NCBI GenBank assembly: GCA_018650085.1
Contig: JABIGQ010000009.1
Location: forward strand, 1 to 36,237
Reading direction: 5' to 3'
DNA from: Candidatus Magasanikiibacteriota bacterium
GTDB lineage: Bacteria > Patescibacteriota > Patescibacteriia > Magasanikbacterales > UBA922
DNA: 36,237 nucleotides
This document shows positions 5,550-12,100 of this stretch, piece by piece. Every line of letters starts with the position of its first letter. Positions within the stretch are counted from its first letter, which is position 1. A model generated the notes under the pieces. The model did no database searches. It was given only the letters and a program-made list of their open reading frames with translations, and had not been told where the DNA came from. The position numbers and the translations under genes were made by a program.

Positions 5550-6632
5550 TTATTTTAAATCTAATTGAGAAAGCCCTCCTTCATGACTTATAAACATGGT
5601 ATTTTCATAAATTCCTTCTGCTATATATAACTCTGTATATGAAGCAGTAGTCTCATAATGATATATTGGCTCCCAATTTTTTCCATCTTGTGAAGCTAAT
5701 ATTCCATAATTTGTCACATCATTTGGGCTATTATTTTCTACATGAGTCGCTGCATAATATCTATTATCTATTTTTACTGAACTATATATATAACTACCAC
5801 TCATCCAATTTATATCCTCATCTTCTGGTTTCCAGACATCTATAGCTTTTGGTGTATTTATGTCATAAAAAGCTACTCCATACCTATACCCCTTATCCCC
5901 AAATAACAATATATTCTGTTTTTTAGAATCATATATATGAGAAGTAAAACCTTCATCCCAAATTTTCTTCCAAGTTTCTCCATTATCTCTTGTCTCTATT
6001 GCCCATCTCGTAACATCCCCAGTGCCTATAATTACTCTATCTGATAATGCAATGATATCATGAGTATGTCTCATTTTTGATAATGTTGTTTGATCACCAT
6101 AAAATTCTTTTTCTTCTGGAAATATATCCCACATATGTTTCCACACTTGCCAACTTACCCCATTATCTATACTGTTATATACAACAGGATCATTACCAGC
6201 CCAAAGTGTGGCATAATGCGTTCCTTTTTTATCATCAGTAAGCCCCCAAAACACTCCAATATTTTCAGTTACAACTTCCCAAGTATTTCCCAAATCTGTA
6301 GACCTATATGTTTTTACTGGGTTTTGGTCACTATAATATATCACACCATTACTATCTATAAATATATGTGCATAAGAATATGTATCTTCAATATGTAACA
6401 AGGTTGTCCATGTTATACCATCAAACATAACTAGTCCATGAGAATCTCCAAAATCGGCTACGGCAATTACCGATTTCAATGTTTGATGAAATAATATTTT
6501 GTGCACTGATAATATATATTCTGGTAATGACATGTCTTTTCTGTTTTCTTCAATAACATTACTATTTATCATAAAAAACATAGAAATAATTACAACAACT
6601 ATCACTGTTGATATCGTTATCAATTTTTTCAT
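5550..6632 (-). CDS. Membrane-anchored/secreted Asp-box (BNR/sialidase-type) beta-propeller-like protein
   Basis: N-terminal hydrophobic signal/anchor; repeated Asp-box-like motifs STDLGNTWEVV, SIDNGVSWQVW, TRDNGETWKKI, SQDGKNWEPI. Confidence 0.75.
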   Translation of the reverse strand: MKKLITISTVIVVVIISMFFMINSNVIEENRKDMSLPEYILSVHKILFHQTLKSVIAVADFGDSHGLVMFDGITWTTLLHIEDTYSYAHIFIDSNGVIYYSDQNPVKTYRSTDLGNTWEVVTENIGVFWGLTDDKKGTHYATLWAGNDPVVYNSIDNGVSWQVWKHMWDIFPEEKEFYGDQTTLSKMRHTHDIIALSDRVIIGTGDVTRWAIETRDNGETWKKIWDEGFTSHIYDSKKQNILLFGDKGYRYGVAFYDINTPKAIDVWKPEDEDINWMSGSYIYSSVKIDNRYYAATHVENNSPNDVTNYGILASQDGKNWEPIYHYETTASYTELYIAEGIYENTMFISHEGGLSQLDLK

Positions 6633-6725
6633 AATAAATATATTAATAGTATTATACTTGTCAATAATACTTTATATGTTACCCTATTTTTTATATGATT
6701 ACAAGAATATTTTTAAACAAAAATA

Positions 6726-7949
6726 CTAAAAACGTGCTAAAAGATCCTCAAATGTTTCTCGTTTCCGAATAACTTGCACATCATCTCCATCTACCAGTAT
6801 CTCTGTAGGTAATCCACGTAATTGATAATTACTTGCCATACTCGCCCCATATGCTCCAGCAACTCCTATAGATAATATATCATTATCACGAACCTCATGC
6901 ATCATACGATCACGGGCAAAAAAGTCTGAACATTCACAAATATTTCCTGTAATATCATATTCTTGAAACATTCCATCTGGATTACTTATGTTTGTAATCG
7001 GATGATATGAACCATACATAGCCGTACGCACTAGATGATTCATTCCCGTATCAGTTCCTACAATTATTTTTCTACTAATTGACTCTTTTATGGTATTTAC
7101 CTGTGTTAATAAAAAACAACTTTCTGCTACAATGTAGCGCCCTGGTTCAAATCGTAATACAGGATGCGCCCCATATGTTTCACAAAATGATTCAAATCTT
7201 CTGTCAATTTGCATTCCAAGTGTATTCATATCTAATCTACTTTCTTCTGGACGATATGGCACACCAAATCCCCCACCTACATCTACAAATTCAAGCCCTT
7301 CAAATTGGGTAGCAATATCTAAAATAACATCTAATGCTAAGATTGGTTCACGAAGACGTAACCATCCTGACCCAATGTGCTGGTGAATTCCTACAATCTG
7401 TAAATTATGCTCTTTTGCAATTTCTTTTACTTTTTCTACATTTTTAAATGAAATACCAAATTTAGAATCGGCTCCACCTGTGATATTTGTTTCATGAGAC
7501 GCTATCCCTATATTTGGGTTAAAACGAATAGATACACGGCTCCCAGAAAATGCACGCCCATATTTTTCTAATCGTGATAAAGAACCAATATTTAATAATA
7601 CTCCTAGTTCATGTACTTCTGTCATTTCTTTATCTGTCATGTTATTCCCAGTATATAAAATTCTATCTGGGGTAGCTCCACAATGTAATGCCATATGAAC
7701 TTCTTCTACAGACACTGCATCAATTCCAAGCCCCTGACCAATAATTTCTTTTACAAGAGATGGATTATAATTTGCTTTAATTGCATAAAAAAAATCAGCA
7801 TTCTCATATTTTCCTATACCCTCTTTTAATTCAGCGATTCTTTCTCGAATAACTGTAGCGTCATAAACATATAATGGTGATCCAAATTGTTCACATAACC
7901 CCTCTACTTTTTGTTTTCCGATATAATAATTGTTGTCTGTTAATTGCAT
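6726..7949 (-). CDS. lysA: Diaminopimelate decarboxylase
   Basis: FYAIKANYNP PLP-Lys motif, VDVGGGFGVPY, RFEPGRYIVAESCFLL, GNICECSDFFA, VAGAYGASMASNYQLRGLPTEILV. Confidence 0.9.
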   Translation of the reverse strand: MQLTDNNYYIGKQKVEGLCEQFGSPLYVYDATVIRERIAELKEGIGKYENADFFYAIKANYNPSLVKEIIGQGLGIDAVSVEEVHMALHCGATPDRILYTGNNMTDKEMTEVHELGVLLNIGSLSRLEKYGRAFSGSRVSIRFNPNIGIASHETNITGGADSKFGISFKNVEKVKEIAKEHNLQIVGIHQHIGSGWLRLREPILALDVILDIATQFEGLEFVDVGGGFGVPYRPEESRLDMNTLGMQIDRRFESFCETYGAHPVLRFEPGRYIVAESCFLLTQVNTIKESISRKIIVGTDTGMNHLVRTAMYGSYHPITNISNPDGMFQEYDITGNICECSDFFARDRMMHEVRDNDILSIGVAGAYGASMASNYQLRGLPTEILVDGDDVQVIRKRETFEDLLARF

Positions 7950-7965
7950 ATAATATTAATTAAAA

Positions 7966-8898
7966 TTATCTTTTTATAAAATTTACACGTTCTATAGTCA
8001 TTTCAAAATATTGTCCAACCCATTCTATCACACTACCCACATAAATAAAAAATTTACTTAAATATGATATCTTACCATTTGATGGCACAATCATAGTTGA
8101 ACCACCATCTGGATTTTCTGTACTTTGCACTTTTATCTTCAATCCATAATTAGCAGCAACTTCTACTGCAATGGGATGAACTACTGAAGTACGAAGTGTA
8201 AGGAACTGTTTACTTGTCATGCTATCATACCGTATACAATCTTTATCACCACTGTTTGGGTCTTTATTATATACACCATCTACATCAGTAGAATTTATAT
8301 ACAGATCCGCCTGCATGACAATGCACACAAGTGTACCAGTGGTGTCTGAGCCCCCACGCCCAAGCGTTTTTATACTACCACATGGCATAGCACCATAGAA
8401 ACCACCTATCACGCATCTTTCGTCCCCAAATGCTTCACGAGTAGCTACAGACGTTTGTGCTTTATCAATTTCTCCAATACTATTTAAACAAATAACATCT
8501 GCTGCATCTACCCAATGCCAACCAAGTAGTAATGCCATGATTTTTGATGAGAGGTATTCTCCACGACTTGCAATATAATCTTGCCCAGCACCATTATCTA
8601 TATCACTTAAGATCTTTTTAAACTCAGCTGGAATATCAATATTTATTTTTAAATCATCTACAATCTGGATAAAACGTGCTTCTACTTCCTTGAACTTATC
8701 GTTCATAAGAAGATCTGTTATCTTTGGATCCTCATTATCACGCCGACCAGGTGCAGAAACGATAACCCAATGAATTGATTTATCTGCACTAACCTGATTT
8801 GCTACAAACTGATACAGCATAGCTGTGGCTAGTGATGTTCCACCAAATTTTACTCCATGTTTATATTGTTTCTCCTTATTTACAGTACAAATTTTCAT
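7966..8898 (-). CDS. lysC: Aspartate kinase, catalytic domain only (no ACT domains)
   Basis: KFGGTSLA, SRGEYLSSKIMA, LGRGGSDTTGTLV, STDVDGVYNKDP, VVHPIAVEVA; ends ~35 aa after the usual end of the catalytic domain (STMIV). Confidence 0.88.
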   Translation of the reverse strand: MKICTVNKEKQYKHGVKFGGTSLATAMLYQFVANQVSADKSIHWVIVSAPGRRDNEDPKITDLLMNDKFKEVEARFIQIVDDLKINIDIPAEFKKILSDIDNGAGQDYIASRGEYLSSKIMALLLGWHWVDAADVICLNSIGEIDKAQTSVATREAFGDERCVIGGFYGAMPCGSIKTLGRGGSDTTGTLVCIVMQADLYINSTDVDGVYNKDPNSGDKDCIRYDSMTSKQFLTLRTSVVHPIAVEVAANYGLKIKVQSTENPDGGSTMIVPSNGKISYLSKFFIYVGSVIEWVGQYFEMTIERVNFIKR

Positions 8899-8919
8899 AT
8901 ATAAAAAAATTAAGCAAAC

Positions 8920-8945
8920 AAAAAACCCGCTTTCGCGGACTCTCC
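8920..8945 (-). terminator. Intrinsic terminator inside the lysC 5' leader
   Basis: Minus strand GTCCGC-GAAA-GCGGGTTTTTTG; U-run lies about 20 nt before the lysC ATG. Confidence 0.75.
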
Positions 8946-8972
8946 TTTTGTATTATGATATATACAACAAGA

Positions 8973-9038
8973 CTAGACCGCTATAGGCGAGCTCTTCTTG
9001 TTCATCTTCGCTACTAATTGTAGATAAGTCATATTCAT
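8973..9038 (-). CDS. Putative leader peptide MNMTYLQLVAKMNKKSSPIAV (21 aa) upstream of lysC
   Basis: ORF from ATG 9038..9036 to TAG 8975..8973; three Lys codons (AAG, AAG AAG); overlaps stem-loop 8966..9002 and precedes the terminator. Confidence 0.5.
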   Translation of the reverse strand: MNMTYLQLVAKMNKKSSPIAV

Positions 9039-9047
9039 AATATAAAT

Positions 9048-9076
9048 ACTGTATCAGCATGATGATACGTTGTCAA
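9048..9076 (-). promoter_or_regulatory. Putative promoter of lysC-lysA leader
   Basis: Minus strand TTGACA-N17-TACAGT (9076..9071, 9053..9048). Confidence 0.55.
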
Positions 9077-9153
9077 ATAATATTGTGGATAAAACTTAAA
9101 CATGAGGCATGATTCAAATAGCATGTATTTGTAATTTGTTTGTTTCTTGTATC

Positions 9154-12100
9154 TTACTTTTCTTCCACAGCAACTTCATCTAACTTCACACTAAGCAAAT
9201 GACTCATACCGTCATTTCCCATAGTTACACCATATAACGCATCCGCTGCGTGCATAGTCACACGATTATGTGTGATAATAATAAACTGAGAATCATGAGA
9301 TAATTCTTTTAAAATATCTACAACACGTACAGTATTTGCTTCATCTAGTGCTGCTTCTACCTCATCTAAAACCACAAATGGTGATGGATTGGTTTTTAAA
9401 ATCGCACACATAAGCGCAATGGATGTCATGGTGCGCTCTCCTCCAGACAATGTCTGGATATGCTTAATCTTTTTTCCAGGAGGACAAGCTGTAATGTCTA
9501 TTCCCTTTAATACTTTTTTTCTTCTTTTCTTTTTTTCATCGCCTTCTTCTATATCCTCTTCCATTTCATCCTGAGCGTCAGCCAAAGGATCTTCTCCGTC
9601 ATATCCATACACTTCTACTAACTCTGCTTTTCCTCCATCAAATAGCATTGTAAAATATCTAGAAAATTCTTTTTTTATTTGTTTAAACGCACTGCCACGT
9701 TTTTTCTTCATGATTTTATCTAATTCATCTATCAACTTTTCTAAATCACGAATTGCTTTTTCTAAATCGGTTAATTGCGCATAGAGTGACTCATGGCGTA
9801 ATTTTGTTTCTTCATATTCACTGACCACTTCTGTATCTATACCACCTATTAAACTTAGTTGATATTTTAATTTTTGTACAGCAACTTGTAGTGTATCAAT
9901 TTCTTCCAATGCAACCGTAGGCACACCACGTGCAATAATTGGTTCTATTGCTGTATGTAATTCTTGATACAATTCATGTAATAAATCTTCTTGTTTTGTT
10001 TCAAATTTTACAAAAGACATTTGTTTTTCATTTTTTTGTCCTAGCAATTCATTTACTGTTTGCTGTGTTTCTTGCATACTATCTTGCAGTTCAAACACAC
10101 GCTTCTTTTTATTTTCTTCCACTGCATTAAATTCTTCTATCTTTGCATCATGTTCTTTTAGCGTTTCTAACACCGCTTCAATATCTGCGTCTAATTGTTC
10201 TTTTTCTACAGATAAATCTTTCATCACTTCTCCATAATCTTCTGGACTCATTGTTTGGAGTGCAAGTTCTTGCTCAAGTGTAGATAATTCACCTGCTACC
10301 GCTATCGCTTGTTTTTCTACCATCTCTCGCTTGTTTTTTGCTACTTGCAATGCTCCATCTGTCATACGTGCTTCACTCATTACTCGCTCAAGTGCAATCT
10401 CTAATACATCATATGTATGCCGTTTTTCTGCAATCTGCTTTTCTACTTCTTCTGTCTTTGCAGCAACTGCCTTTGGCGCACTACCATCTTTGAAACTTAG
10501 TCCATGTGAATGCCTTCTTCTATGCCCACCTTTTACCGCACCACTTGTTTCAAATAAATCTCCCTCTAGTGTCACCATACGTACACGTCCAATCCCAATT
10601 TCTTTTGCAGTTGAAAAATCATCTACAACAAGTGTAGAACCAAATACAAATGAAAACACAGGACTATATGCTTCATCAAATTGAATTAATTCCTGCGCCA
10701 ATCCGTGTACACGAGGATGGTTTAAAAATTCATATACAAATGAAGGAACATCTCGTTGCCTTATTTTTGACAATGGTAAAAATGTAGCAACCCCAAAACG
10801 TCCCTCACGTAAAAACTGTACACAACCTTTTGCGTCTTCTACAGACCCAACTACAATAGAAGACAACTGTCCACCAGCTGCCACATCTAATGCTGTCTGA
10901 TACTGTTCTTCCACATCTCCCAGTTGTGCCACTACTCCATGCACATCCCCCAGCTGATGCTGAGATTCCAATACTGCCTGCACTGCCCGAAGACCGGTAA
11001 TTTGAAATACAGATTGTTCACTTTTTACCCTAGTTAATTGCGATTCTAAAGATGCAATATCTCCACGAAGACGTGTTTTTTCTATAGATTGTTCTTCTTG
11101 TGTTTGTTTTAATTTTTCAACATCAACTTCCTTTCCATTACATTCTTTTTCTATAGTCGACACTTCTTCATCCAACTGTTCTTTTTGTTCACGAAGTGTA
11201 GTGATCTTACTTTCTAACCAGCCCACTTGATGCTGTCCTGACTTACTATATTCTGTTTGTAATTTTCCTTGCAATACTGCTTTCTCACGCTCCAATGCAT
11301 TTTTTTTATGTACCACTTCTTGATATGCTTTTTGGAGTTCGGTAAATGCTTCTTGGCGACTAGACGCTTGTGCTAATTCTGCCAACTCTACCTGAATACT
11401 TTCTAATAATTTTTGTTTTTCTTTCAACTCTTCATCTATTCCTTTTATACTTTCATCTAAAATTGAAATATTATCATCATGATACTGCCAAAGTGTGGCA
11501 TAATATGTTTCTTGTTTTTCTTGTAATGTTACAGTTAATTCTTTTCGTTTTTCTAATTTTTTTACCTGACGAGATAATGTTTTCAATCGTGGAGAAATTT
11601 CATGTAATAACAAATCCGCCTGCCCTACATGCTCTTTTGTTCGTGCCAATTTTAATACTGCTTGATGCCTTTTAATCTGAAATTCTTTAATTCCAGTCGC
11701 TTCGTCAAAAAAATCTTTTCTATCTTGCGGAGACTGAAGTAACATACGATCTATCATCCCCTGCCCAATGACTGCATAAGATCCTTGCCCAAACTGTGCC
11801 TTTGCCAAAAGTAATTGCAAGTCAAGCAAACGTACACTATGCCCATTTATAAGATATTCACTATCTCCAGATCTATATAATTTTCGCCCAATAACGACTT
11901 CATCATAATCAATATCTACACGACCATCACTATTATCAAGGGTCATCATGACACTTGCCACACTCATTTGCCCCTTTGAAGATGAACCTGAGAAAATAAT
12001 ATCATGGCTTTTCTTCCCACGAAGTTGCTTCATACTCTGTTCACCCAAGACCCAACGAATAGCATCTGACACATTACTTTTCCCACTGCCATTTGGCCCT

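Follow-up and report, generated by a model that had tools for sequence, protein, structure and literature searches.

The stretch of DNA analyzed here (referred to as the window; 36,237 nucleotides) is one of the contigs of a 1.0-Mb Candidatus Magasanikiibacteriota genome (G000) and harbors, on its minus strand, the gene smc followed by lysC and lysA. The interval between smc and lysC contains, at positions 8918 to 9041 of the minus strand, a promoter, a leader open reading frame (ORF) of 21 codons, three of them AAG, and hairpins for antitermination and termination that compete with each other (Table 1). The promoter, the ORF, the pairing segments, and the terminator are all located where an earlier, sequence-only reading of this DNA had placed them.

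Table 1. Features of the lysC leader region and the genes behind it (window coordinates; an asterisk after a peptide sequence marks the stop codon)
Feature	Coordinates	Strand	Remarks
Promoter TTGACA-N17-TACAGT, TG extension	9076..9048	-	10/12 matches; predicted start about 9041
Leader ORF, 21 codons, MNMTYLQLVAKMNKKSSPIAV*	9038..8973	-	Probably leaderless; homologues in 17 further genomes
Lys codons AAG	9008-9006, 8999-8997, 8996-8994	-	Sequence
Regulatory pair AAG AAG	8994..8999	-	Second KK of the conserved KKxKK
Segment 1 AGAGCTCGC	8987..8995	-	Partner is segment 2, or segment 4 in the full-length fold
Segment 2 GCGGTCT	8975..8981	-	Overlaps leader stop codon 8973-8975
Segment 3 AGTCCGC	8935..8941	-	Pairs with segment 2 (antiterminator) or segment 4 (terminator)
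Segment 4 and U-tract GCGGGTTTTTT	8920..8930	-	3' arm of intrinsic terminator
lysC, aspartokinase catalytic domain, 310 aa, without ACT domains	7966..8898	-	Pfam PF00696; best PDB match 3tvi (aspartokinase)
lysA, diaminopimelate decarboxylase	6726..7949	-	TIGR01048, 383 bits (cutoff 297.9); PDB 2p3e, E = 3e-68

The leader region and its downstream genes

The terminator stem (8945..8920, minus strand) is GC-rich and followed by six T residues, an arrangement for which the expectation was 0.2 in shuffles of positions 8600 to 9200, and lysC starts 20 nt past this hairpin. A transcription start for lysC downstream of the terminator had been named by the sequence-only reading as an observation that would speak against attenuation; no promoter-like site was found between the terminator and lysC. 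Folding of the region yielded the mutually exclusive structures which that reading had anticipated, i.e., competing 2:3 and 3:4 pairings, with none of 200 dinucleotide shuffles folding as well (z = -3.2). It also disclosed a 1:4 pairing which the reading had lacked: positions 8997-8987 (segment 1 and Lys codons) are able to pair with 8930-8920 (segment 4 and the U-tract), thus enclosing the 2:3 hairpin, and the combination of 1:4 and 2:3, rather than the terminator, represents the minimum-energy fold of the full-length sequence.

When the window leader is considered alone, its three Lys residues in 20 codons carry a p value of 0.21, bearing out the caution already voiced that three lysines might be due to chance, and its three AAG codons carry a p value of 0.0035, because AAG accounts for only 19% of the Lys codons in the window's genes. 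The 2:3 complementarity of the window sequence alone is likewise not significant (p = 0.11, unbiased shuffle test). The window copy is among the more degenerate members of the family described below, with KMNKK in place of KKxKK and a U-U mismatch in the 2:3 pairing, and that this particular copy still works in G000 is a less certain claim than the existence of the attenuator class itself.

Scores of the lysC product against the NCBIfam aspartate kinase models were under the cutoff. The window's lysC was not found in other genomes of the family, an aspartokinase search of 86 genomes of the order gave weak matches in only two genomes besides G000, and a LysC query against genome contigs in the related-locus search recovered no relatives, while a tblastn search with LysC against phage records returned distant aspartokinases only. 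Aspartokinase genes do occur in records titled Listeria, Enterococcus, or Salmonella phages, which probably represent bacterial DNA. Neither asd (PF01118) nor dapA (PF00701) was detected in G000, both searches being positive in 14 of 14 control genomes, and the lysine pathway of G000 therefore looks incomplete; its LysA may possibly use scavenged DAP. In view of the missing asd and dapA matches, the proposal that the element provides feedback control over a kinase without ACT domains goes too far.

Lysine leaders and their asparagine and threonine counterparts

Eight genomes of the family carry the element after smc (G000, G001, G002, G012, G017, G025, G031, and G081). The only congener of G000, G001, possesses the element and is devoid of lysC, and six other genera are likewise without this lysC. 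In these relatives, a promoter precedes a 16- to 20-codon ORF which specifies a KKxKK core (e.g., MNIVLTQLVSKKEKKLSPAG*, MKNMNAIQLFTLKKVKKISLAG*, and MNFNSFTTKKTKKITLPAG*) and whose stop codon overlaps GCGGGAT, this being followed by CCCGC-loop-GCGGGATTTTTT. In G001 and G002, the leader is followed by a gene for a 243-aa protein, X, and then by a dapF-like gene (PF01678, 1e-14; TIGR00652 under the cutoff). Comparison of the two congeners at this locus (window positions 5550 to 8898 versus L062) revealed that the leader was kept and the genes behind it exchanged, i.e., X-dapF in G001 and lysC-lysA with a BNR-repeat protein gene in G000, in both cases before rpsP.

A covariance model (R1) built from the eight post-smc elements was run against 86 genomes from the order and 384 from the class. 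It retrieved, from a genome of another family outside the training set (G076, E = 4e-11), a leader MATKIINSKKTKKISLAG* directly upstream of lysC-asd-lysA, the LysC and LysA proteins of which share only 27 to 30% identity with those of the window. Further R1 matches comprised a leader upstream of lysA in G010; leaders in G026, G027, and G016, with lysA of G027 located about 0.5 kb upstream on the opposite strand; a leader MKYFLLSNKDKKPAT* upstream of dapA (PF00701, 3e-92) in G674, which belongs to another family; and leaders in G630 and G565, also of other families. An additional model, R3, which contains only 3 base pairs and whose list includes false positives below a significance of about 1e-5, identified leaders immediately upstream of lysC in G148 (E = 4e-8) and G163, both from another class. 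Within the Patescibacteria, elements of this type thus extend over several families, which belong to two classes (Ca. Magasanikbacteria and others).

Matches of R3 at G002:C11 and G081:C165 proved to be the terminal parts of lysine-rich coding regions lying ahead of terminators and were rejected; weak R1 matches (L093, L094, L096, L099, L103, L104, L107-L111, L114, and L117-L119) were rejected by eye as coding sequence or plain terminators. Two further sequences were noted: a possible second Lys leader MLYSISYNLNKKKYPEVFSW* with a terminator, which immediately precedes the G016 leader in a tandem arrangement (G016:C56:4942-5028; L161 43-129), and a weak candidate (E = 0.36) in G443, from another class of the phylum, where MNAQFSQFAKKSISTRLRR* and a terminator lie upstream of lysC-lysA (L005 2439-2545, minus strand).

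Eight of the 18 Lys leaders precede a gene of the cognate pathway, namely, lysC (G000, G076, G148, and G163), lysA (G010), dapA (G674), or a dapF-like gene (G001 and G002). The targets of the remaining ten (about half), which have no proven lysine role, encode acetyltransferases, amidohydrolases, M23 or M20 peptidases, and proteins of no assigned function. At five loci (L154, L155, L159, L160, and L065), the first gene encodes a GNAT acetyltransferase (weakly ablB-like), an ATP-grasp-like protein (by eye), or a formyltransferase protein, and the next one an amidohydrolase or an M23 peptidase; this second target group possibly represents a lysine-acquisition pathway.

Conservation of the leader frame and its Lys codons, which had been suggested as a check on the sequence-only reading, is apparent across the 18 members: of the 321 leader residues, 78 are lysine (binomial test against the composition of the window's genes, p about 7e-19), with the KKxKK core described above, and the prevailing Lys codon (41 of 58) is AAG, which is the less frequent of the two in the genes of the window. 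Terminators are present in all members, and segment 2 begins 9 to 15 nt past the end of the last Lys codon in 18 of 18. The leader stop codon overlaps or abuts segment 2 in most members, those of G010, G025, and G674 departing from this pattern. For the eight members identified first, the 2:3 hairpin was predicted when the RNA was folded up to the terminator 3' arm and the last Lys codon was occupied by a ribosome.

A MAFFT alignment (A1) gave a weak consensus structure because of misalignment, and pairing was therefore tested on segments. Hand-marked segments paired better within than between members (permutation test, p = 5e-5 for each of 2:3 and 3:4), their choice by eye favoring this result. 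In a test free of this bias, a 28-nt stretch spanning the leader stop was shuffled and its pairing with the 5' arm of the terminator was scored; p was below 0.05 in 15 of 18 members, and the Fisher combined p of about 1.5e-21 is inflated by shared ancestry. Both pairings, 2:3 and 3:4, are kept through sequence change, as the earlier reading would lead one to expect: GCGGGAT in segment 2 is replaced by GGTAGTT (G026), GAAGGGT (G027), GACGGGT (G016), or GTCGGCT (G630), and the close relatives G148 and G163 carry GCGGGG/CCCGC and GCGGAG/CTCCGC, respectively. Covariation across members thus preserves the mutual exclusivity of antiterminator and terminator, for which the window alone is not significant.

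Weak R1 matches also exposed a sister group, consisting of leaders with about six Asn codons (e.g., MRYILVNNNNNNSQ*), an antiterminator, and a terminator directly upstream of tRNA-Asn(GUU). A model of these leaders, R2, was built without tRNA sequence; within the order, 30 of 30 examined loci (L124-L153), G000 included, are upstream of tRNA-Asn(GUU), as are 19 of another 20 loci from the class (L165-L184), giving 49 of 50 in total. G000 itself carries two copies (G000:C25:2438-2522:+ [L140] and G000:C23:593-677:-). In the pairing test, 77% of 48 Asn leaders reached p < 0.05. In these elements, a tRNA gene is apparently attenuated through the codon that its product reads. Thr-rich leaders with terminators (e.g., MYMTQINSTTTTTTTTSGG*) were found upstream of aspartokinase genes in six genomes of other Patescibacteria (L010, L016, L019, L021, L028, and L031); they are analogous to thrL but have no Rfam match. 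Four of these six aspartokinases are open frames of 812 to 902 aa, whereas it is Lys leaders that precede lysC genes. The match of leader codon identity to target for Lys, Thr, and Asn strongly supports codon-specific sensing, as judged from sequence.

In the 44 Lys and Asn leaders taken together, the median distance from the end of the -10 box to the ATG is 8 nt (quartiles 8 to 9), 17-nt spacers dominate, and the best promoter averages 9.9 of 12 matches, with a score of 9 or more in 89% compared to 8% at random positions. No Shine-Dalgarno sequence was present in these 44 leaders. Given a normal start distance, the RNA would begin at or next to the AUG, and the Lys and Asn leader ORFs are, therefore, probably leaderless.

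Proposed mechanism and alternative explanations

We consider it highly likely that positions 8918 to 9041 (minus strand) of the window specify a ribosome-mediated transcription attenuator which senses charged tRNA-Lys. Directly observed here are the leader with its codons and the competing pairings, the conservation of these features, and, in relatives, target genes for lysine or DAP. The occurrence of the element before unrelated lysC, lysA, dapA, and dapF genes reinforces the lysine attenuator proposed by the sequence-only reading, in which stalling with coupled transcription remains the conjectural part; the transcription start, translation, stalling, read-through, and transcription-translation coupling invoked below are what we infer from this arrangement. 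RNA polymerase would start at about position 9041, and translation of the leader ORF would begin at or very near the 5' end of the transcript. With ample Lys-tRNA, the ribosome is expected to reach the stop codon overlapping segment 2 and to block the pairing of this segment, whereupon the 3:4 terminator would form and transcription would end at about position 8920. When Lys-tRNA is scarce, the ribosome would stall on AAG AAG and cover segment 1, allowing 2:3 pairing in place of the terminator and, consequently, transcription of lysC-lysA. If the leader is not translated, 1:2 and 3:4 are predicted to form and the operon would be off.

The hairpin could instead be a mere smc terminator, with the 21-codon ORF and the alternative pairings being accidents of an AT-rich intergenic region. 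Its position between smc and lysC on the same strand is in keeping with such a role, as are the nonsignificant lysine enrichment and 2:3 pairing of the window alone; the terminator, however, is located 209 nt past smc and after a promoter and an ORF of its own, and eight genomes have retained the element behind smc, Lys codons included. The leader ORF also occurs at loci without smc, before lysA, lysC, and dapA, which contradicts this explanation and renders it very improbable. Control of lysC by a lysine riboswitch (L-box), a T-box, or another translation-independent RNA sensor is scarcely credible: lysine genes elsewhere are usually regulated by RNAs of this kind (L-box: PMC1262725), yet no Rfam match was obtained at the gathering threshold in the window, nor any match to the leader element at relaxed thresholds in related loci, and the element, about 120 nt long, is maintained as a reading frame.

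Stalling might also be caused by the basic and highly conserved KKxKK peptide itself, or by some other signal, rather than by a shortage of Lys-tRNA, in which case the element would be a nascent-chain or general translation-stress attenuator, and the fact that part of the downstream genes are not lysine genes fits this view. The same architecture is nevertheless found with runs of Thr8 or Asn6, each matched to its own target, and the dominance of the rarer codon AAG in the leaders also argues for codon sensing, such that we regard peptide-induced stalling as unlikely. Somewhat more weight is due to the possibility, still a minor one, that the element is ancestral to the smc locus, where it served X-dapF, and was inherited in G000 by an imported lysC-lysA pair, being now in decay or only partly functional. 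In the congener G001, X-dapF does lie behind the leader at this very locus, and G000 combines a more degenerate leader with undetected asd and dapA. Against advanced decay, the leader, its codons, the position of its stop, and both hairpins are all still present in G000, and since lysA alone is a lysine gene, its control would still make sense.

Patescibacteria are largely uncultured, and little is known of their regulation. On the evidence from the three leader types, it is likely that these bacteria possess widespread, undescribed, leaderless ribosome-mediated attenuators with interchangeable codons (Lys for lysine or DAP genes, Thr for aspartokinase, and Asn for tRNA-Asn), of which the window element is one member. 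If so, Patescibacteria would contain a lysine-specific class of ribosome-mediated attenuator, the Asn version would constitute a translation-sensing feedback loop on a tRNA gene, and these reduced epibionts would use the coupling of transcription to translation as a means of sensing amino acid charging. Reporter constructs of the matched Lys, Thr, and Asn versions would offer a direct test of codon-specific sensing.

Comparison with known regulatory systems

Lysine genes are known to be under the control of L-box riboswitches and not of classical leader peptides, attenuators being listed for histidine, threonine, and phenylalanine (PMC1262725). The L-box and T-box likewise exert cis-acting RNA control over lysine genes but do so through direct binding of lysine or uncharged tRNA. 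None of the Rfam families considered (L-box, T-box, Thr_leader, and other amino acid leaders) matched the Lys, Asn, or Thr elements, and a search of the open-licence literature found no leader-peptide attenuator in Patescibacteria, for lysC, or before a tRNA gene.

Among characterized systems, the window-type element most closely follows the design of the proteobacterial trp, his, thr, leu, ilv, and phe leaders, with which it shares a leader rich in the regulatory amino acid, 1:2/2:3/3:4 segments, a stop codon at segment 2, an intrinsic terminator, and, for eight of the 18 leaders, a target in the cognate pathway. It differs from them in its specificity for lysine, its occurrence in Patescibacteria, its apparently leaderless ORF, its position before lysC, lysA, dapA, or dapF, and the lack of sequence relation to an Rfam family. 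Two elements of Sinorhizobium meliloti (PMC10117765) invite comparison. The candidate leader peptide SEP5 has Lys codons near its 3' end and is linked by the authors to the threonine and lysine pathways; its sORF, however, contains six Thr and three Lys codons, lies upstream of an aspartate dehydrogenase gene, and occurs only in Sinorhizobium, and the passage concerned describes no competing structures for it. The trpL/rnTrpL attenuator of the same species, as portrayed there, resembles the Lys leaders in that its leaderless ORF starts from the AUG, but it employs Trp codons, acts on trpE, and is unrelated in sequence and phylum. The mechanism proposed for the window element is a textbook one; what is new, as far as we could establish, is its specificity for lysine, its apparently leaderless ORF, and the host.
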